Positions 11,753 to 33,952 of a DNA stretch of 34,277 nucleotides are shown here, piece by piece. The notes beneath the pieces were generated by a model, which did no database searches, was not told where the DNA came from, and saw nothing but the letters and a program-made list of their open reading frames with translations. This stretch comes from Bacilli bacterium. GTDB taxonomy: Bacteria > Bacillota_I > Bacilli_A > RFN20 > CAG-826. How positions within the stretch are numbered: the stretch's first letter is position 1; every line of letters starts with the position of its first letter. Where the stretch lies: contig JAILBR010000036.1 in NCBI GenBank assembly GCA_024680795.1, forward strand, positions 1 to 34,277. Reading direction: 5' to 3'. Made by a program: the position numbers and the translations under genes.

Positions 11753-13711
11753 ATGCATTCACGCGAGCGTGTAAATATTAAAGAAAACAAAGTATGGCAA
11801 ATATTGAAATATTCTCTATTTAATATCCATATTCTTTTTCTTGCTGTTATTTCTGGATTGTGTCTCTTCAGCGCATTAGTTGTTAGAGATACTTATTCAT
11901 GGCTTCCATGCTTATTCCTATTTGCTATTTTTGCTAGTGTAATTGGATTTAGATTATTTATCGCTATTTCAAGAACGAAAGAAAACAAACTTATTAAAGA
12001 CCCAACATCATCTGTTTTAACTAGAACACTAGAGTTGTTCTTTGTCCTTTTAACATGTGTCTCTTTACTTTTGATCCTTATTTTTACTCTAGCGGCAATT
12101 TCATCTAGCCATGTTTCGACATCTAGCGAAATAAATCTTTTCTTAGCTAACAAGATTAATGAATTCTTACTAGCAGCCCCAGCGGGACTTATCTACTTTG
12201 CTAACATCATCGAGTTTATTACTTATCTAAGACTTAGAAAGCAGGACATTAATGAAGATGTTGCTGGCTTAGATAATTTAGCAAGAGCAAAAAGACTAGT
12301 AATAGTGGGACTAGATGCTTTTAAAACAAAGAATAAAGAAGTGGAAGGATCTATTTCTTTAAGTGGCATTAGTACTGATGAGATTAATCAAATCATTTCT
12401 AATATCATCGAATACACAAAAGAAGATAACTACTATGATTCACTTTGTGAATATTATAGATGTTTCAATAAATCTGAAATTATATCATCAATTAAATACA
12501 ACGATATTAATCGTTATGGTGCGGTAACATTCTCTACTGGAGTGACTTATTTATTTGGCGAACCGCAAAACATGAAAATCGAAAATGAAGGTGCCTATCA
12601 AAAGATAAACGAACTTCAAGAGATGGGTTATAAAGTATTAGTCTTATCTAAAGGTATCGAGCAAATTGAAGGTGACACATATCTCTCTACAGTTACTGCG
12701 ATTGCTTTAGTGTTATTAAGAGATGAATTGCAAGAAGGAACTAAAGAAGTATTTGATTATCTTTCTAACCAAGGAATAGATGTCAAAGTTTTATCAGGAT
12801 CGTCCGTTGAAAACACTCAATTCATTCTCAAAAAAGCAGGTTTCATGAACGCCAATAGTGTATGCCATTTTGATGAAAATGAATTGAAATTTACCGATGA
12901 AGGTGCCTTATATTGCGACCTAAATGTAAATTCCGCCACTGTTTTAATGGAACAATTAAACGAACAAAATATCCCTACCGCATATATTACAGAAGGGTTC
13001 AATAGAACTGTTGAAAAGATTGAAAAAGGAAAAGAGATCAATAGTAGACTAAACGCTATAGCTTCTCTTTATGTTAGCAAATCGATTTTTGCAATTATTT
13101 TATCCATTACATTCTTCATCATCTCGTTAGTCACTTCTTATACTTATCAGTATCCATTCACATATAATAATTTCTTACTCTGGGAAGTGTTCTCAATTAT
13201 GCTGCCAAGTTTTTATTTATTGACTGAAAAGAGCAGCAAAGATGTTGAACCTTCGTTCCTCAAGAGTGTATTTAAAAAAGTCTTGCCTATATCGGTATTA
13301 TTTACCTTAGGAACATTATTAGCATTTATCGCTTATATACTTTATATAAATGGTATTATATATACTGGAATCGAAGATTACGGATTAATAATCGGAGAAG
13401 CAAATAGATTTGGCGCAACTGGTATTGCGGTTATAACTATCACCATATTATCTTTTGTAGCAATATATATTGTAATCCGAAAGATTTTTAAGAAAAGCGC
13501 AACAATCCTTGCATTCACTATCATTCCAACTTTATTGATTACCATTGTAATGGTGATTGTTGGTCCAAATACAAACTGGATAAACATTGATTTTAACAAA
13601 ATACTACCTGTTAACTATCTAGCAGCCGGCATTATTTCTCTAGCCGTTTCTGCTCTTGTGTTAATTGTTGTGGTGCTTATAGATGTAATTAGAGGAGAAA
13701 AAAATGATTAA
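11753..13711 (+). CDS. Pseudo-P-type ATPase (catalytically degenerate membrane protein)
   Basis: This 652-aa protein aligns by eye along its length with Exp7/CtpE-like cation P-type ATPases but cannot work as one. VWQILKYSLFNIHILFLAV and the next segment match M1-M2; only about 20 residues separate M2 from M3, so the actuator domain with TGES is missing. At the phosphorylation site DKTGTLT is replaced by LDAFKTKN (187-194). N-domain-like RYGAVTFSTGVTYLFGEPQ and P-domain-like LVLLRDELQEGTKEV and KVLSGS remain, with Ser where the SGD Asp should be. GDGVNDA is absent near 413. SRLNAIASLYVSKSI through YPFT and LPSF matches M5-M6, and the C-terminal helices persist. The uninterrupted frame argues for a retained function, perhaps regulatory or scaffold. 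First gene of a five-gene operon. Confidence 0.7.
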   Translation: MHSRERVNIKENKVWQILKYSLFNIHILFLAVISGLCLFSALVVRDTYSWLPCLFLFAIFASVIGFRLFIAISRTKENKLIKDPTSSVLTRTLELFFVLLTCVSLLLILIFTLAAISSSHVSTSSEINLFLANKINEFLLAAPAGLIYFANIIEFITYLRLRKQDINEDVAGLDNLARAKRLVIVGLDAFKTKNKEVEGSISLSGISTDEINQIISNIIEYTKEDNYYDSLCEYYRCFNKSEIISSIKYNDINRYGAVTFSTGVTYLFGEPQNMKIENEGAYQKINELQEMGYKVLVLSKGIEQIEGDTYLSTVTAIALVLLRDELQEGTKEVFDYLSNQGIDVKVLSGSSVENTQFILKKAGFMNANSVCHFDENELKFTDEGALYCDLNVNSATVLMEQLNEQNIPTAYITEGFNRTVEKIEKGKEINSRLNAIASLYVSKSIFAIILSITFFIISLVTSYTYQYPFTYNNFLLWEVFSIMLPSFYLLTEKSSKDVEPSFLKSVFKKVLPISVLFTLGTLLAFIAYILYINGIIYTGIEDYGLIIGEANRFGATGIAVITITILSFVAIYIVIRKIFKKSATILAFTIIPTLLITIVMVIVGPNTNWINIDFNKILPVNYLAAGIISLAVSALVLIVVVLIDVIRGEKND

Positions 13712-23829: not shown

Positions 23830-26800
23830 TTAGCCAACGATGTTTTTGACGCTATATGTTCCTAATAGGACACCAACGAATTTACCGTTTGTAGCGCTTG
23901 CAGCTGCCATTGGATCCATATAGTAAGATAAGAAATTACCGCTTACTACTTTTTGGATATTTGTTTGATCAACAGCAGCGTTGATGTTACCACCATCAAA
24001 TAATGCAACATCATCACCTTCTGCGGCTTTTGCGTATGGGACTGCACCAGCGCCACCATTAACGTAAACCAATCCACCAGCAGAGCTTTCAATAATGATA
24101 GGAGCAAATGCACCAGGAACAATGGTTGTTGTTGGTGGATATGGATTTGGATTATCATGTTTTGCAACTTTAGCCATATTTAATAATCCGGTCTCATTAC
24201 CATTTGTAATGGTGAAACTACCTGTTAGATTCTCATCAATATTATTTGCGAATCTATGCGCACAAATGTCGATAACAAGGAAGTTGCAGAATCCGTTTTC
24301 ATTATCTTTTAAGCAAGTTGTTTTTGCATCAAAGTCAATTTGTTGTTGAGCAGCATTTTGTCTAATTCCAGCAGATAATAATCCGAACCATCCGCTTGCG
24401 CCTAAAGTTGGATCACCAACATTAATGAGCTGTTGTTGCACTAAGTCTTTGGAACCTGCGTGTCCTTCAAACCATGCTTCTGCACCTGTAACAGGGTTAT
24501 TAAGATATGTGTTATTTGCCACACCAACTGTTTGATAATGGCTAACACCGTGGTCAACTTGTGCATTATCTGTTGGGTTTTCATCCATTAAGATGAGTGG
24601 TCCGCCAGCTCTATTGAACCAAGAATCATTAATTTCATTATCTTTTGTTCCAAAGAAGTATAAGGCAGAGTTGTATGAGTTATAAATCTTTGATTTATTA
24701 ATTGTTAATGATGTTAATTCTCTTTGCACAGCACTGTGTTTGTCAGACATTACACCTGAGAATGTATTTACTAAAATAGTATTTTCAAGTGTTAAGCCAG
24801 CACCTCTACTTTTGAAACCAAAGTAACTACCTTTATTCAATTTTGTTACTTTATCGCTATCACTTAATCCACCATTACCAATGATATTAAGATTTCTAAC
24901 GGTGACGTCGCTTGAACCATTATTCCATTCATCACTGTAGTCTGGTACATCGGTATTAATACCAAATAATTGTGCGTGAGCACCTTGGTTAGCTTGACCG
25001 TTAACCAATAATAAATGTGGATCTTTATCGCTTTCTTCATAATCCATAAATGCAACTGGTTTAAATTCGGATGCGTTAAGTGAGAAATAGTTACCTTCAA
25101 TGGCGAAATCATTATCAGTACTTCCATAAGTATTTCTTGAGAAAATAGTACCATAATCTCTTGGCGTACCAATTAAATAATCTTTGGCTTCATCAGCGCT
25201 TTCAAAGCCAATGTCTTGCCACCACTGATTAAAGTCTGCTGCGTATCCAGTTAAGTATGCTTCAATTTCTGCTGTGGTATAAATAGCGGAAGATGGCAAC
25301 ACGTCTGATGTAACAGCAATGTCATTATGTAAGATGATTCCACCTTCAACGTTAAGGCCATCCACGCCAGCCCCTTTACGAATGTCGGTCCAATCGATTG
25401 GGTTTTCTCCTGGAATATGGTTATCGAATAATGATAATTCGCCTAATGTATAAGCGTTATATCCTTCAACAACGATAAATTCAAATGATGTAGTACATGC
25501 TTCTCTATCTTTTGTTGAAATATAGTAACTTGAACTTTCTGTTGGTGTAACAGTTAGTCTTAATTTCTTGCCAATTGCAGCATCCTTAAATTCGTATTCA
25601 TTTCCTTCTACATCAGCGTAGTCTGCTAGGGCTGCTGGTTTGAATTCGCCATTATCAAAGACTTCTAATGATTTATCATAAGTTAAAGCGCTATAGACTT
25701 CGGCTTCGCTTGTAATAGCAGTTGGAGTGAATTTAAATTTACCTTGATTGCCAACTTTATAAACCTGTTTATCAGATTCATCTTCGTCATATTCAAAGAA
25801 CTTACCAGAACTTAATTCACTTCCGTTTTCATAAAGCTTTTCAGTTGAATCTAATGATTCTAACTTTGATTCATAAGACTGAATAGAAAGTGGCTTGGTG
25901 ATAGATGTAATTCTTGTTAAATCAGGAGAAACAACGTGAATATTACATGTTGCAGTCTTACTACCATCTTCAGTTGTAACTGTAATAACAGCGTCGCCTT
26001 CACTGACAGCAGTAACTAAACCGTTTTGTGAAACCTTTGCAACTGTATTATCACTTGTTGACCAGGAAACGTTCTTATTTGCAGCGTTTGCAGGTGTAAC
26101 AGTTGCCACTAATTCGAGTGTTTCTTTTGCCGCTAATTGTTTGCTTGTTTCATTTAATGAAACGCCACTAACTGCGACAGGAATAACTTGGATTGTCACT
26201 TCTTTAAAGACAGAAGGATCTTGAACAGACATAACTTTAATTTTAGCTGTTCCTAAACCGACTGCACTGATGTGACCTGTTGAATCGACAATAACAGCGT
26301 CTGTGTTATTTGATAAGAATGAGACTGCTTTATTTGTTGCGTTAGCAGGTAAAACTTCAACAGCTAAGTTTTCAGATGTACCTAATGGCATTTTATCTGG
26401 AGCACCGGAAACATTGATTTCAGAGACGTGTGTGACTGGATCAACGACATGAATTGTGCATTGATTTGATTCAACATTGCCATCTTCGCTCTTGGCTTTG
26501 ACAACAACATCACCAACTTCAGCACCAGCGCTAATTTGGTAAACGTTATCTGATAATTTGGTTAATGTTGCAGCAGTTCCGCTAACAACTTCAAATGTAA
26601 CCTTTTGGTTAGCAGGAAGTGTACCAGCTTCGTTTGCTAATGTAGCAACGATTGTTTCTTTTTCATTTAAGTTAACGTTAACACTTTCTGGAATAGTGAC
26701 AGTTTTAACATGACCTTCGCCACTTCTTGGAAGAACTGTAACATTACATGTTGATTTCTTTTCTGGATTGTCTTCGCTTGTAGCGGTAATAACTGCAGTA

Positions 26801-27615
26801 CCTTCGTTTAACGCTGTAACAGCACCAGTTAAACTATCAACATTTACAACTCCTTCTGGTGCAACTGAGAATGTAACTTTCTTATTAGTTGCATCTTCTG
26901 GAGCAATTGTGGCCACTAATGTTTCTTTGTCAGCAGTTGACATATTAAGTGTTTGCTTATTTAATGTAACGTCTGTAACTGCTTTATAATCGTCAATAAC
27001 TTCGATTTCTTTAGTGGCAGTTTTGGTTTCATCATCATTTGATGTAGCAGTGATAGTGACTGTTCCTTTTGTAAGCCCAGTAACAACACCATTAGCGTTA
27101 ACTGATGCGATTTCTGGATGATCACTTGACCATGATACAGTTCTATCGGTTGCGTCATCAGGTGTGACTGATGCGGTTAAAGCAATCATTTCACCTTTTT
27201 TAACTGAATCAGCTCCTGAAATTGCGACTGATGTGACGTGGATAGTTCTATCTTTCTTTGTAACTGTAACAGTACAAGTTGCTTGAACTGTAGAACCTTC
27301 TTCTTTGCTTTTGACAGTAATTGTAGCTGTGCCTTCTCCAATACCTCTTACAACACCAGAAGCACTAACAACAGCAACATCTTCATTACTACTTAACCAA
27401 TCTAGTAGTTTGACTGTTGCGTTTTCTGGAGCAATAGTAGCAGTAAGGCTTGCTTTTCCTTGCTCTTCAACAGATAAAGTTTGTTTATCTAAAGTAATGC
27501 CTGTAACTTTAATGGTTTCAGGAGTAACAGGAGTGTTGCCGCCATTATTACAACTTATCATTGCCATCGAAGCAGCAATACCCATAAGAGCAAGACTTGC
27601 TTTTTTAAACTTCAT
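23830..27615 (-). CDS. Surface lipoprotein with six Big2 domains and a beta-helix region
   Basis: The largest gene in the window encodes 1261 aa. The N-terminus is a lipoprotein signal (KFKKASLALMGIAASMAMISC, cleavage before Cys22), so it would be lipidated by Lgt, whose gene is in this window. Residues from about 35 to 565 form six Ig-like Big2 repeats, each with a TxxLxP-x-NAT-type core and a Gly-rich GTATIT strand. The remaining ~690 residues include VRNLNIIGNGG, LTLENTILVNTFSG and LTINKSKIYNSYNS, repeats characteristic of right-handed beta-helix (pectin-lyase-fold) proteins. Expected at the cell surface, binding or processing a polysaccharide or adhering to a host; no catalytic site could be assigned. 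AGAAAGG ribosome site; 72 bases after the preceding gene. Confidence 0.85.
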   Translation of the reverse strand: MKFKKASLALMGIAASMAMISCNNGGNTPVTPETIKVTGITLDKQTLSVEEQGKASLTATIAPENATVKLLDWLSSNEDVAVVSASGVVRGIGEGTATITVKSKEEGSTVQATCTVTVTKKDRTIHVTSVAISGADSVKKGEMIALTASVTPDDATDRTVSWSSDHPEIASVNANGVVTGLTKGTVTITATSNDDETKTATKEIEVIDDYKAVTDVTLNKQTLNMSTADKETLVATIAPEDATNKKVTFSVAPEGVVNVDSLTGAVTALNEGTAVITATSEDNPEKKSTCNVTVLPRSGEGHVKTVTIPESVNVNLNEKETIVATLANEAGTLPANQKVTFEVVSGTAATLTKLSDNVYQISAGAEVGDVVVKAKSEDGNVESNQCTIHVVDPVTHVSEINVSGAPDKMPLGTSENLAVEVLPANATNKAVSFLSNNTDAVIVDSTGHISAVGLGTAKIKVMSVQDPSVFKEVTIQVIPVAVSGVSLNETSKQLAAKETLELVATVTPANAANKNVSWSTSDNTVAKVSQNGLVTAVSEGDAVITVTTEDGSKTATCNIHVVSPDLTRITSITKPLSIQSYESKLESLDSTEKLYENGSELSSGKFFEYDEDESDKQVYKVGNQGKFKFTPTAITSEAEVYSALTYDKSLEVFDNGEFKPAALADYADVEGNEYEFKDAAIGKKLRLTVTPTESSSYYISTKDREACTTSFEFIVVEGYNAYTLGELSLFDNHIPGENPIDWTDIRKGAGVDGLNVEGGIILHNDIAVTSDVLPSSAIYTTAEIEAYLTGYAADFNQWWQDIGFESADEAKDYLIGTPRDYGTIFSRNTYGSTDNDFAIEGNYFSLNASEFKPVAFMDYEESDKDPHLLLVNGQANQGAHAQLFGINTDVPDYSDEWNNGSSDVTVRNLNIIGNGGLSDSDKVTKLNKGSYFGFKSRGAGLTLENTILVNTFSGVMSDKHSAVQRELTSLTINKSKIYNSYNSALYFFGTKDNEINDSWFNRAGGPLILMDENPTDNAQVDHGVSHYQTVGVANNTYLNNPVTGAEAWFEGHAGSKDLVQQQLINVGDPTLGASGWFGLLSAGIRQNAAQQQIDFDAKTTCLKDNENGFCNFLVIDICAHRFANNIDENLTGSFTITNGNETGLLNMAKVAKHDNPNPYPPTTTIVPGAFAPIIIESSAGGLVYVNGGAGAVPYAKAAEGDDVALFDGGNINAAVDQTNIQKVVSGNFLSYYMDPMAAASATNGKFVGVLLGTYSVKNIVG

Positions 27616-27687: not shown

Positions 27688-28203
27688 TTACCATTTTATA
27701 CAAATGGTCATTTTGATTGCAGAGCCATCATTTGTGCTGAGCAATACTTCATAAAATCCGCTTGTTGAGTCTGCTTTAAGTGTGATTTCTCCTTTCTGAT
27801 CTACTTCAATGTAGTCCGATTTACTTTTATCGACATAATACGTAAGTGTTTTATCACTAACTTCTCCTTTTGAGGAATATGGCTCTGCAGAAAGAGTTAA
27901 TTTGCCACCTACCGTAAACAAATAGTCATAATCCTTTATGTCATAAATATATGGATATCTATTTAGTAAGACTTCTGAATCTGGATTATATTCCGGATTG
28001 TACCTTACTTCATAGATTACCGCCCCGTTTTCAATGTGTTCGTGTGGTAATTCTGGGAATTTGTCATCTCCTTCGAATCTAAACACGATACTTTCTGCAA
28101 TAATTGGTGGGTTTTGTGTTTCTGCTTGATAGCCTAAAAACGCAACAAGAACGATAGATAAGAGATATACTAAAGCAGTGAGAATAATTACTGATTTTTT
28201 CAT
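27688..28203 (-). CDS. Small membrane-anchored extracellular protein
   Basis: From the second ATG (28203) the protein is 171 aa; the ORF track's longer start overlaps the permease gene more deeply and would precede the natural MKKSVIIL signal anchor. One N-terminal hydrophobic helix is followed by an extracellular domain with GGKLTLSAEPYSSKG and YIEVDQKGEITLKADSTSGFYEVLLST, which has the strand pattern of a Big2/Ig-like module. No lipobox Cys is present. The ATG overlaps the permease stop and follows AAAGGGG, so it is part of the ABC operon. Function is unknown; an accessory or substrate role is plausible. Confidence 0.7.
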   Translation of the reverse strand: MKKSVIILTALVYLLSIVLVAFLGYQAETQNPPIIAESIVFRFEGDDKFPELPHEHIENGAVIYEVRYNPEYNPDSEVLLNRYPYIYDIKDYDYLFTVGGKLTLSAEPYSSKGEVSDKTLTYYVDKSKSDYIEVDQKGEITLKADSTSGFYEVLLSTNDGSAIKMTICIKW

Positions 28204-28204
28204 A

Positions 28205-30331
28205 CTAGTCTCTACCCCTTTCTCCACGTGAAGTGCGATAGCCTTTAATCTTTAATAAGAATAAAGCAATTCTTGCAGCGAGGAATACAAAGCCTACCAA
28301 CGCAATTTTGTAGAAGGCATTCATAATGTTTTCTTTAATAAAGAAATAAGAAATAAATGTGAATATAGCGGTAACAACAAAAGCTAAAACAGTGGAAATG
28401 GTTTCATTTGGATTAGTAATGTTGCCTTCGCCAGTCTCACTATATAACCTATCTTGTGGATTCATGTAATCTAATTCAGCAGACCAGATTAAATGCCCAA
28501 TATATAGACATGCAATTCCAATAAAGAGCATGCTTGGTTTAATGAATTTTTGAGTGAAATCACTTGCGTAGTATTTATATAAAATACATGTAACAAGAAT
28601 CGATAACGTCACAATCACCCCACGAATTACAAGTTTAGTGGTCAACATTTTGATGTAATTAACTGGTGCCGCTTTAAGTAAATATGCGCTTTCGCCTTCC
28701 CTAGAATAAATGGATGCAAATATGACGTTACTACTAAGTGGGATTAGGCAAATAATCAAAATATTAAACATGATTGTTAAACCTACACCCATGAATGAAG
28801 TGTTGATTGACGCAAAAAGTTTATTCAATAATGCAATCGCAATTGGAGTGATTATAAATAGTGTGTAGTTACTAACGATGCTACCTGGTGTACGGATATC
28901 TAGCAAGATATCTTTCCATAAAGCAGACAAGAACGCTGTCTTTGTTTCGTTCTGCTTTTTCAAATAGTTTGGATCATAACATTCAACATTAGTCATTCCA
29001 ATTGATCTAGCTAAAACTAGGTGGTTAACTTCGTTTCTTGTTTCGACAAAATATCCAATTTTATATTTTTCAACAAATTCTTCTACATTAACTACCATAA
29101 AGTCCATGTTAAGTTGCCTTTTAAGAAGACTAAGAATCCTCTTTGTAGATACTTTGTTCTTTTTAAATATTTCTTCATTTTTAACAAGTTCATTTAATGC
29201 TTTTTCAAATTTGATTCTTAATTCGATGAGTTGTCTGCTATTTAACTCATAACCGTCAACAGGGACAAATGCATCAATGTAGGATGATTTAATCTTTGAT
29301 TTGCTCCTTGCAAAATTATGGAAAATAATTTTCTTATTATATTCAAATGGCTTGACTGCAATCTTATAAAATAGTGGTTTAGCAAGTAAATAAGCAAGAG
29401 CGAGTAAAATGGCTAATGAGCCAATTAAACCGAGCAAATAAAAGCCAGAATTAGCGGTAAACACTTTAGAAATAAGTGCAGGACTATCGTTTTCAACTGT
29501 GGCTCCGATTGTCAAAGCAGATACACAATATAGAGGATATAGCCACATTTCAAATTGGTTTGCAAAATCGACTAGTGCAGGACAATAAATACTATTCCAG
29601 TTCATAATGAAGTGCAAGTTTTCTGGAATCATATTAATGAAGTAGAACAATACCGCTGTTAACGCAATTAATAAAACTAACATAGCCATATCTTGTAAGA
29701 ATGGTCTCTTAGTTAAGAACATTTTAACTAGCATATATGGAATGGATATAACTGACGCTATTGCGACAGGAATTAGGGCAATTAAGAAGAACATCAAAAT
29801 AACCCAGGGGAAATACCAGATACTAAATTTAAAGACGATTCCATATGCCAAGAACATTGGAATTAAATAGATAATTGATTTGATTAATTCTAGTAGGTAG
29901 AACACTAGTAGTTTTGATAGGAAAACAATACTAGGTTTTACTGGGTAGGAGAGCAAGACTAAGTTGTCTTTACTAAAGTAAAGAGAATTAGTTAATTTTG
30001 CAGTACATGATACGATCGACAATAAAGTCATCGTAATAAAGAATAAGTTAAATACAGAAATAGGAACGCCGGCAAATGTGCCAAATACCGATAGCTTATT
30101 CATTAATGTAAACACAATTGAAATAGCAGCAGTGACCACTACAAATAGGACAATATAGAGGATTAACTTAGTTAAAGCGCCCTTCTTATCGGCTTTGAAA
30201 GAGAAATTGAGTTTATCTTTAAGCTGCATAACGGTCAACGTCCAAAGACCCGCGTATTTACGCTTAAAGAAACCTCCTATAGGGGTGAAAATATTCTTAA
30301 AGAAGTTACTAATTCCTCTTAATACTTTCAT
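28205..30331 (-). CDS. ABC exporter permease, ABC-2-like
   Basis: The 708-aa protein has two hydrophobic blocks: about six helices in residues 50-340 and another group of about six from residue 480 to the end, separated by a ~130-aa cytoplasmic stretch. The DNLVLLSYPVKPSIVFLSKLL segment resembles the coupling-helix area of large ABC-2-type exporters, which place LLSLPISPRKILLAKL-like sequence there. It follows the ATP-binding fusion by three bases, with the ATG in a weak ribosome context, implying translational coupling. It probably forms the transport channel powered by the upstream ATPase. Substrate is unknown. Confidence 0.8.
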   Translation of the reverse strand: MKVLRGISNFFKNIFTPIGGFFKRKYAGLWTLTVMQLKDKLNFSFKADKKGALTKLILYIVLFVVVTAAISIVFTLMNKLSVFGTFAGVPISVFNLFFITMTLLSIVSCTAKLTNSLYFSKDNLVLLSYPVKPSIVFLSKLLVFYLLELIKSIIYLIPMFLAYGIVFKFSIWYFPWVILMFFLIALIPVAIASVISIPYMLVKMFLTKRPFLQDMAMLVLLIALTAVLFYFINMIPENLHFIMNWNSIYCPALVDFANQFEMWLYPLYCVSALTIGATVENDSPALISKVFTANSGFYLLGLIGSLAILLALAYLLAKPLFYKIAVKPFEYNKKIIFHNFARSKSKIKSSYIDAFVPVDGYELNSRQLIELRIKFEKALNELVKNEEIFKKNKVSTKRILSLLKRQLNMDFMVVNVEEFVEKYKIGYFVETRNEVNHLVLARSIGMTNVECYDPNYLKKQNETKTAFLSALWKDILLDIRTPGSIVSNYTLFIITPIAIALLNKLFASINTSFMGVGLTIMFNILIICLIPLSSNVIFASIYSREGESAYLLKAAPVNYIKMLTTKLVIRGVIVTLSILVTCILYKYYASDFTQKFIKPSMLFIGIACLYIGHLIWSAELDYMNPQDRLYSETGEGNITNPNETISTVLAFVVTAIFTFISYFFIKENIMNAFYKIALVGFVFLAARIALFLLKIKGYRTSRGERGRD

Positions 30332-30334
30332 AAT

Positions 30335-32692
30335 TTACTCGTCTAAATCTCCGTTATCATGAATCATGCTTAAATAGAAGGCTTCTAATCCTTCTGGATG
30401 TTCTTTTTCAATTTGTTCCATACTAGAACGATAGACAATTTGTCCTTTTTTGATAATTGCAATATCTGTACATAATTTTTCGACGACATCAATAATATGG
30501 CTTGAGAAAAAAACGATATTTCCTGCTTTAGCATGTTGAATCATACATTGTTTGACTTGGAAGATAGATTGTGGATCTAGACCAGTTAGTGGTTCGTCAA
30601 GAATCCATACCTTTGGGTCGTGCACTAAAGCAGCAATAATCGCAATTTTTTGTTTCATACCATGCGAATATGTTTGCATACGGTTATCAAATGCTTGGTT
30701 TAATTCGAATAGGTTGACGTATTTTTCAATACGGATGTCTCTATCTTCTCTACTGACATGATATAGATCAGCAATGTAATTGATATATTCTCTACCAGTT
30801 AATTTTTCATATAATGCGTAGTGGTCAGGAACATATCCGATTAAACTTTTAGCTTTAACGCTTTCCGTTGCAGCATCATGACCGCAAACAAAGATATTTC
30901 CACTTGTGACTGGTTGAATACCAATCGCAGATTTGATACATGTTGATTTTCCTGCTCCGTTTGGGCCAAGGAATCCAAAGATTTGGCCGCCTTTGACTTC
31001 TAAATTGACTTCTTTAGCGGACAAAACAGGTGAATTGCCATATCTCTTTGAGAAGTTTTCAAATACAAGACTTACTTCATCTGGATTTAAGTCTTTTTCG
31101 GTAAGAGATTCCATTTTTCTTCTTTCTTTCATAGTCAAATTCTCTTTTCTTGCTACTAAAAGCATATTTCTAAGTTCGATATGGCTGTCTGCTATTCTAA
31201 AGAATAGTGAATAGATGAACCATACCGCAAAAGCGATAGCAATATAAACACCAAAGTAAATGGCTTGATATGGAGGTCTAATGACAAAGACGAGATCACC
31301 CCATTGCCATTTTGCAACTTTACTTAATAGTTCTTCCGCCTCTATGTCGCTCATTAATTTTGATGCGATAAAGTCGTTATTAATAAAGAAGTAATCGGTG
31401 CCAGAACCAACAATGTCTGGATTATAACCAGGCACATAGTTAGATAACCATGCATTGGCGAACATAATAATAACGAAATATAAGCCAAAGAATCCAAGCG
31501 ACCATAACATTTGTTTGAATTTAGCTCTTTCAAATACTTTCAAAGCAACACAAAGTAGTGGCATCGCAAAAGCGGCCCAGTGATTGTACCAATATAAAAC
31601 AACATTTGGAGCGTAAATATTCAACATCTCACCTGTATTAGGCATCAATATTGCACACACAGCACCAAAAACGTTGATGAAATAGGTGAAATAGAATAGT
31701 CTCTTAAAATTAAATGCAATACAAATAGGAACAACGAATAAAGCAGTGTGACATAAGTGAATTGGCAATGTATTAACGTCGATTTTTAATACCCCATCTG
31801 CATAATAGAACAAATAATTAGCGTTATATCTGCCCATGAAGCACATTAAACATCCAGCGGAAATAGCAATAAGAGCACTTTTTCTTAAGTTAAGTTCGCT
31901 ATTACGTAATGTGAAATAAACAAGGAATGTTAAGAATATCATGAAGTAGATTGTCAATCTGTGAGTAAAAGATAAATCATATATTCTTAAAGATGTTTGA
32001 TATGTTCCAAACAAGATTCCGTCGGTTGGGAATAGTGTTGATAATGTGTTAATTGGTAATGTGGCAAAGAAGATCATGAGCCATAATCCGTATGCCTTCA
32101 ATATGTCCTTATGATTTGGAAATAATATCTCTTCTCTATATTCCGCTGCCATAATAATTGCAGAAGCAAAAATGAAGCCCACCTGCATAGAGAGTAAAAT
32201 ATTGCGATAATCAACTTGTAGGTTACCATTTAATGCATTACAAATATTGAATAAGAAAACGAATTCAAGAAAAGCGACAGGTAAAGCGATATATTTATTT
32301 ATCACTTTAGCGGTTCTAGAAGGGAAAAATGGGATTAATAGGGCAATCAACGCTGCTGGATATTGTAGAGCAGCTCCAAACCATGCAAGGAAATTAAGGA
32401 ATCTATTGTCCCCGTATGGCGTGCCCAATAAATTAACGCACCCGTACGCAGGATTTAATGAGCCGGGTGTTTCACCGTTTTTTGTGATCATGGCACCATT
32501 ATTATGGAAGAAAGCACCAATGATAAAGACGATTGCTAATAAAGCTACTATTCTAGTGAACCATGTTTTAATTTTCTGGACTGCTTGTTGATTATTTATC
32601 CTGAGTGAAGAAACCTTTACGAATAAGGTGTAACCTAGACTTGGGACAAGCAAACAGATTGATGCAGTTAAATAAAGAATAAATACGTTCAT
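30335..32692 (-). CDS. YwaF/TMEM164-like membrane domain fused to an ABC ATPase
   Basis: This 785-aa protein has an unusual two-part architecture. Residues 1-500 are membrane-embedded with some 12 helices; LPIHLCHTALFVVPI (309-323) and GSGTDYFFINND resemble the YwaF/TMEM164 family, whose members carry an LPLHLC-type motif. After a charged linker (505-538) a complete ABC nucleotide-binding domain follows: Walker A GPNGAGKS (576-583), signature YSHGMKQ (675-681), Walker B VWILDE (695-700), H-loop FFSSHI. The frame is uninterrupted, so this is not a sequencing join. It leads the operon with the permease and small anchored protein. The ATG has CATAAT about 14 bases upstream and no clear ribosome site. 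The membrane homology is by eye and less certain than the ATPase. Confidence 0.75.
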   Translation of the reverse strand: MNVFILYLTASICLLVPSLGYTLFVKVSSLRINNQQAVQKIKTWFTRIVALLAIVFIIGAFFHNNGAMITKNGETPGSLNPAYGCVNLLGTPYGDNRFLNFLAWFGAALQYPAALIALLIPFFPSRTAKVINKYIALPVAFLEFVFLFNICNALNGNLQVDYRNILLSMQVGFIFASAIIMAAEYREEILFPNHKDILKAYGLWLMIFFATLPINTLSTLFPTDGILFGTYQTSLRIYDLSFTHRLTIYFMIFLTFLVYFTLRNSELNLRKSALIAISAGCLMCFMGRYNANYLFYYADGVLKIDVNTLPIHLCHTALFVVPICIAFNFKRLFYFTYFINVFGAVCAILMPNTGEMLNIYAPNVVLYWYNHWAAFAMPLLCVALKVFERAKFKQMLWSLGFFGLYFVIIMFANAWLSNYVPGYNPDIVGSGTDYFFINNDFIASKLMSDIEAEELLSKVAKWQWGDLVFVIRPPYQAIYFGVYIAIAFAVWFIYSLFFRIADSHIELRNMLLVARKENLTMKERRKMESLTEKDLNPDEVSLVFENFSKRYGNSPVLSAKEVNLEVKGGQIFGFLGPNGAGKSTCIKSAIGIQPVTSGNIFVCGHDAATESVKAKSLIGYVPDHYALYEKLTGREYINYIADLYHVSREDRDIRIEKYVNLFELNQAFDNRMQTYSHGMKQKIAIIAALVHDPKVWILDEPLTGLDPQSIFQVKQCMIQHAKAGNIVFFSSHIIDVVEKLCTDIAIIKKGQIVYRSSMEQIEKEHPEGLEAFYLSMIHDNGDLDE

Positions 32693-32712: not shown

Positions 32713-33163
32713 CTAGCACATACGCGTATAAGTGTCAAATGTGTAAAAATTCAAAATTCTTAAACTTTTTCGAAAAAATGACCTTTTGCGAGGAAATAAT
32801 ACTAAAAAATCGCATAAAATTTTTATTTTTTTGTTTTTTTGAAGAAGTTGTATTTGATGTCATAAAGATAGCGGTGTCTACTTTTTTGAGCCTATATTTG
32901 ACGTTATGACAAACGCAAAAATGTATATGAATATGACGCTTTTCATGTCATTCAGATGGTCTTTGATTGTCAAATGATGCTTGTTGTTAATCTTTGTGCG
33001 AAAAGATAAATTTATTCCAAAGTCTTTTAAAAACCAATTCGATTCTTGAGCTGCGTATTATAAATGAAAAAAATGTAATTAGTAGGTTATTTATCCTTTT
33101 AAAAAAACAAACATTTATGTCCTAAATATTACATTATCATTAACTCTAGTTTTGTATTCTTGT
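32713..33163. other. AT-rich divergent spacer with clustered dyads
   Basis: About 480 bases separate the ABC fusion and lgt starts. It holds long T runs and, within 100 bases, several dyads with shared TTTGA/TCAAA or ATGAC/GTCAT half-sites: TTTGATGTCATAAA (32853), TTTGACGTTATGACAAA (32897), ATGAC-9-GTCAT (32933) and TTTGATTGTCAAA (32962). TGTCAAATG also repeats at 32733 and 32968. No tRNA, known RNA or convincing gene is seen. It may be a regulatory region or hold an undetected RNA. Confidence 0.45.
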
Positions 33164-33169
33164 TATAAT
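33164..33169 (+). promoter_or_regulatory. Extended -10 box of a leaderless promoter (lgt)
   Basis: TGTTATAAT (a perfect TATAAT with TGn extension), six bases, ATG. No ribosome site. It fixes the start at 33176 rather than the upstream TTG at 33152. Confidence 0.65.
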
Positions 33170-33175
33170 ACAACC

Positions 33176-33952
33176 ATGTATCCGAATCTATTTGGCATCG
33201 AAGGCTCATCAATGGCTATCATGATGGGAATTGGGGCAATCGTCGCAGTCCTAGTTACTTTCCTTTTTCTTAGGAAGCACGGCTTAGATACCAGAAACAA
33301 GATCATTGATTATTTTATAGTAGTCTTGGCAACTATTTTTATGGGTATACTTTTTGCTATGCTCTTTGAGAACATCTATGAAGCAATTAAACACTCAATT
33401 AATGGAGAACCTCAAGCTTGGACTTGGAATAAGACCTTCTATGGTGGCTTATTTGGTGGAGTAGCAACTTTCTTACTAGTATATCGCTTCTATTATCTAA
33501 GAAATAACCCCCCTATTATTAAGGAAGTGCTTAAAATTGCTCCATCCGCGATATGTTTTGGGCATGGCATTGGCAGATTGGGATGTTTTTTAAATGGATG
33601 TTGCTATGGATTAGAAACAGAATCACCTCTTGGAATGTATTTTCCAGGGCATGATCATAAAGTTTTTCCAACTCAATTATATGAGATGGTGTTCTTATTA
33701 ATTCTTGCTACGATATTATTAGTATTAGCGTTTAAAGAAATCACTGTTTATACAATGCCTATTTACTTATTATCTTATGGTATATTTAGATTCCTCATTG
33801 AATTTATTCGTGGTGATGAAAGAGGGCAACTTCAAGGCCTTTCCCCATCTCAATACTGGTGCATTTCGCTAGTCATTGCTTCTATAGTGTTATATATTAT
33901 ATATAAGAAAGTAATTTTCCCTAAGGAAGAAGAACCAGCGAATGAGATTTAG
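33176..33952 (+). CDS. lgt: Prolipoprotein diacylglyceryl transferase
   Basis: Lgt moves the diacylglyceryl group from phosphatidylglycerol to the lipobox cysteine of prolipoproteins in the plasma membrane. The 258-aa protein has about seven membrane helices, the family signature region GHGIGRLGCFLNGCCYG, and the later FPTQLYEM and LIEFIRGDERG motifs. The Cys-rich GRLGCFLNGCCYG form replaces the GRIGNFINGE of E. coli, as in several other lineages. The natural start is 33176, set by the leaderless promoter; the ORF track's start adds eight residues. The window contains a clear client, the Big2 lipoprotein. The next gene overlaps its 3' end by 11 bases. Confidence 0.9.
   Translation: MYPNLFGIEGSSMAIMMGIGAIVAVLVTFLFLRKHGLDTRNKIIDYFIVVLATIFMGILFAMLFENIYEAIKHSINGEPQAWTWNKTFYGGLFGGVATFLLVYRFYYLRNNPPIIKEVLKIAPSAICFGHGIGRLGCFLNGCCYGLETESPLGMYFPGHDHKVFPTQLYEMVFLLILATILLVLAFKEITVYTMPIYLLSYGIFRFLIEFIRGDERGQLQGLSPSQYWCISLVIASIVLYIIYKKVIFPKEEEPANEI

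Follow-up and report, generated by a model that had tools for sequence, protein, structure and literature searches.

The window, by which we mean the whole analysed stretch of 34,277 nucleotides, carries a cassette of four genes in the order fusion, ABC-2-like permease, small one-helix protein and large beta-helix lipoprotein; all cassette features given below are on the minus strand. The first gene (30335-32692) is a single intact reading frame without interruption. It encodes a protein of 785 amino acids that combines an N-terminal domain of six helices, a TMEM164/YwaF domain and an ABC ATPase, as delineated by the reading frame, Pfam, an AF2 model and an alignment of 76 members. The model has a mean pLDDT of 89 and displays about 13 membrane-length helices.

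The TMEM164/YwaF domain (residues 244-492, 31217-31963) matches PF14808 with 61.7 bits (cut-off 25; E 9.3e-17), and hhalign comparison with stand-alone members of the family gives a probability of 99.3% (E 4.5e-20). A TMEM164 profile match at E<=0.001 was found in 21 of 21 N-terminal regions. The NCBIfam model TIGR02206 (TP0381/YwaF type) scores 45.5 bits, under its cut-off of 75, and DUF1405 (Pfam) gave no match in the fusion at E<=1. In the AF2 model the TMEM164 part consists of the helices between 242 and 419 together with 473-505, and the last helix of the membrane region is one long helix (473-530) that leads into the ATPase. The ATPase domain (residues 541-765, 30398-31072) matches PF00005 (ABC_tran) at residues 560-702 (E 5e-25) and has fold matches in PDB to EcsA, TM0544 and LptB. 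Walker A (GPNGAGKST), signature (SHGMKQ), Walker B (ILDEP) and H-loop (SSH) are all present, in support of an earlier note on this DNA that described the ATPase as complete, and these motif columns are invariant across the 76 aligned fusions.

The N-terminal domain (residues 1-240, 31973-32692) has modelled helices at residues 2-31, 35-62, 97-119, 126-145, 162-184 and 194-210. Searches of Pfam and NCBIfam with residues 1-240 gave no match, and neither did a PDB sequence search with the N-terminal part. The earlier note had described an ATPase fused to a TMEM164/YwaF-type region, and both the fusion and the family relationship are well supported, with the two domains recognised by Pfam in one frame. 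The note had extended that region over ~500 residues and 12 helices, which holds for residues from about 240 to 505 and fails for residues 1 to about 235, an unrelated part of six helices with a hhalign probability against the TMEM164 family of 12%, which is not significant. The TMEM164-like part is thus confined to residues about 240-505, and the rest of the membrane region is a separate 6-helix unit. The possibility that the N-terminal half is a second TMEM164 copy was rejected, the hhalign probability being 12% for a match to the family and 5% for one to the other half.

An alignment-based search of named public genomes found 152 relatives in other assemblies, and the 80 that were fetched all carry the fusion. 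A scan of genome contigs with the single protein found no relatives, whereas the alignment scan did. The N-terminal region of the fusion is present in 50 of 196 genomes of the same family, nearly always within open frames of 700-860 amino acids. When 392 genomes of the phylum were searched, all matches spanning the whole N-terminal model were in open frames, none shorter than 697 amino acids, and one genome (G584) had the region split across contigs. A full-length N-terminal region without the fusion was never found among the genomes searched, and the other relatives present in the genome of the window itself are relatives of the ATPase part only. The source genome is an assembly of 74% completeness in 72 contigs, which could favour an artefact of assembly or annotation. 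However, other assemblies have the same fusion in 80/80 related loci; this comparison, which the earlier note had suggested, rules out chance or misassembly and leaves such an artefact with a negligible probability.

According to their record titles, the 80 relatives are uncultured or metagenome-assembled Bacilli, Bacillales, Erysipelotrichales and Clostridia (with Christensenella and Borkfalkia), and the fusion is spread over many uncultured gut Firmicutes. One record titled 'Corallococcus' nests among the Clostridia in the tree and is probably a mislabelled bin. The distribution is patchy, also within the genus of the window, and the fusion tree groups by class though not cleanly, so loss, paralogy or transfer may all lie behind it.

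The permease gene (28205-30331, 708 amino acids) is found 3 bp past the fusion and matches PF16949 (E 7e-7). A permease is present in 79 of 79 loci with room for it and overlaps the fusion or is within 36 bp of it in all but one; the PF16949 matches are weak and occur in 24 of 40 members of the permease family. The PF16949 neighbour is the putative membrane subunit of an ABC exporter, encoded beside the ATPase. The small protein (27688-28203), present in 73 of 73 loci with room, combines a single N-terminal TM helix with an Ig-like ectodomain according to alignment A4 and a weak Big_2 match in a homologue. Its start is more probably at 28203, where MKKS is conserved, than at the GTG of 28227.

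The fourth gene (23830-27615) encodes a lipoprotein of 1261 amino acids with a lipobox (ISC, Cys22), five Big_2 repeats (E 4e-60) and a C-terminal region, residues 600-1261, modelled by AF2 as a right-handed beta-helix (pLDDT 76). A fold search with the beta-helix model gave no PDB match below E 0.001, and the NosD R-domain was found at rank 40 with a probability of 0.30. The lipoprotein is present in 68 of 70 loci with room (two on the opposite strand), a count based on gene position and on an iterated profile that had drifted to full length. The iterated ATPase profile drifted likewise, and a trimmed beta-helix alignment was used instead for the genome counts. A lipobox was identified by pattern in 67 of 70, the three exceptions being two fragments and one VAC. 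The repeats vary between loci and are Ig-like or of the Listeria-Bacteroides kind (Big_2, Big_3, Flg_new). Very large lipoproteins of 3317 amino acids (L213, 2995-12948) and 1981 amino acids (L212, 2938-8883) were observed in cassettes of distant families.

Gene overlaps are frequent in the cassette, and the gene order is the same in distant families. No further recurrent genes were seen among the three largest neighbour clusters, the biggest of which covers 7 of 81 loci. The earlier note did not mention the cassette with the permease and lipoprotein that belong to it; this gene set is genuine and, within the literature searched, undescribed. In a sample of 54 genomes, the lipoprotein beta-helix domain was found in 33 of 34 genomes with the fusion versus none of 20 without it, and strong permease matches (best E below 1e-70) in 34 of 34 versus 0 of 20. 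The lipoprotein copy number tracks the cassette number, with at least two lipoproteins in genomes that carry two cassettes. This co-occurrence equally allows the lipoprotein to be a substrate or a subunit.

Relatives without the cassette have a sister system (L216-L219) with a related ATPase, a permease paralogue (E 3e-26 to 3e-33) and, next to these, a membrane-anchored ectodomain protein of about 820 amino acids and a lipoprotein. It differs from the cassette in that the ATPase stands alone, TMEM164 is absent and AAA_5 and DUF2357 proteins precede the ATPase. Homology between the beta-helix of the cassette lipoprotein and the anchored protein was considered and rejected, the two having in common just a DG-NVY motif of 20 residues that is not significant.

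The LPIHLC motif of the TMEM164 domain occupies residues 309-314 and ends in the predicted nucleophile Cys314 (codon 31751-31753); the predicted catalytic partner is His371 (31580-31582). His312, Cys314 and His371 are invariant among 76 divergent fusions, and the LPxxxC and His columns are common to the fusions and the aligned stand-alone members of the family. The spacing from Cys to His is 57, similar to that of C123 and H181, which we take to be the corresponding pair in human TMEM164. Residues H244, C314 and H371 are predicted to be near the outer face because Lys and Arg are more numerous across the family in the loops assigned inside, following the positive-inside rule, and because of the placement of the AF2 helices. 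TMEM164 is a Cys-dependent acyltransferase (PMC13276253). The earlier note proposed that the fusion links an ATPase with a lipid-handling domain, which at the level of sequence is plausible because the Cys/His pair is conserved.

An exception is genome G027, where both cassette copies lack C314, H312 and H371 while the remaining cassette, including the lipoprotein, is kept. Residues 312/314/371 are S/S/R and G/I/Q in its two fusions (L207 and L058); its relatives G071 and G086 still have all three residues. The joint disappearance of Cys and His fits a single active site, and the persistence of these cassettes shows that the gene set can do without that site, acyl transfer being dispensable in some cases. 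The G027 genome is ~0.8 Mb, and its copies without Cys/His retain permease, small protein and lipoproteins.

Other members of the TMEM164/YwaF family (PF14808) that were examined are stand-alone proteins of about 240-290 amino acids. The fusion domain scores over the cut-off and has the conserved LPxxxC and His motifs, but here it is joined to an N-terminal domain of six helices and to an ABC ATPase. LhaT (YpjA, DUF1405) of Bacillus N-acetylates lipoproteins at the outer face using a lipid-borne donor, with no flippase known, and was assigned to the TMEM164 superfamily by its authors (PMC12345273). The cassette would share with LhaT the superfamily, a lipoprotein substrate and the outer face. 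It differs in that the fusion has no DUF1405 match, LhaT has no ABC partner and the donor lipid is known for LhaT only. No paper on TMEM164 or YwaF joined to an ABC transporter was found in a literature search that was thin on subscription papers and preprints, and the literature searched held no functional paper on the bacterial TMEM164/YwaF family.

By analogy with LhaT, we tentatively prefer an explanation, held at somewhat less than even confidence and as a lead, in which an extracytoplasmic acyltransferase is built into an ABC transporter and serves either the lipoprotein or its lipid donor. We infer complex formation, subunit number, topology, direction, substrate and chemistry as follows. 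The four proteins would form one envelope complex in which two fusion subunits contribute the ATPases and the neighbouring permease the transport path, with the small Ig-like protein and the beta-helix lipoprotein outside. The TMEM164 domain would be an outer-face acyltransferase acting via Cys314 and His371, and ATP hydrolysis would bring or present a lipid donor or acceptor to this site. The acceptor might be the cassette lipoprotein or a lipid linked with it. The cassette may thus be a machine in which ATP feeds or drives lipid modification outside the cell. The bolder proposal, that the cassette is a novel kind of machine for ATP-coupled acylation at the surface, is speculative and has a rather low probability. 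The ATPase subunit of the ABC transporter would itself carry an extracytoplasmic acyltransferase of the TMEM164 type, and a single complex would both supply the donor lipid and transfer acyl groups onto a dedicated large lipoprotein. The loss of Cys and His in G027 and the TIGR02206 score under cut-off count against the preferred explanation.

The main rival explanation is that the TMEM164 domain is partly structural. In NosDFY, an ATPase, an ABC-2-type permease and an outer beta-helix protein are encoded together. The cassette has the same kinds of parts in one gene set, including a lipoprotein modelled as a beta-helix, and its permease and ATPase might drive conformational changes in this lipoprotein or hand something to it, with the TMEM164 domain mainly anchoring or regulating the ATPase rather than acting as a catalyst. 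The cassettes retained in a lineage without Cys/His agree with this, as does the sister system, where the ATPase stands alone, together with a paralogue of the permease and an anchored protein that has an ectodomain, and TMEM164 is absent. The invariant Cys and His in the other 76 fusions and the low rank of NosD in the fold search count against a NosDFY-like role, which we hold to be somewhat less probable than the preferred explanation. The cassette lipoprotein also differs from NosD in showing no significant similarity to it and in having a lipoprotein anchor, and the cassette differs from NosDFY in the TMEM164 domain fused to its ATPase.

The cassette could instead serve only to secrete or mature the lipoprotein, with the ABC part exporting or extracting it and the TMEM164 domain N-acylating it on exit. 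The lipoprotein is dedicated, has a lipobox in essentially all complete copies, follows the cassettes in copy number and reaches 3317 amino acids in distant cassettes. This explanation is unlikely, since Sec is the usual route for lipoproteins, the signal peptides here look ordinary and the lineage without Cys still has lipoboxes. An ordinary efflux pump for drugs, peptides or lipids with an accidental membrane fusion is suggested by the similarity of the ATPase domain to DrrA/GldA and EcsA types. It is even harder to accept, given a fixed four-gene cassette with a co-occurring lipoprotein across Bacilli and Clostridia and the conserved Cys/His.

For lipoprotein acylation of the LhaT type, the route by which acyl donors arrive at enzymes of the outer face is an open question (PMC12345273). 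The natural fusion of a TMEM164-type domain and an ABC ATPase, accompanied by a dedicated lipoprotein, would allow coupling to donor supply to be tested directly, and the cassette provides a lead to the function of the bacterial TMEM164/YwaF family.

Two other genes of the window were noted. A membrane protein of 652 amino acids (11753-13711) resembles a P-type ATPase by eye, without a recognisable DKTGT motif. The lgt gene for prolipoprotein diacylglyceryl transferase (33152-33952, PF01790 E 2e-33) is divergent and adjoins the cassette in this genome.
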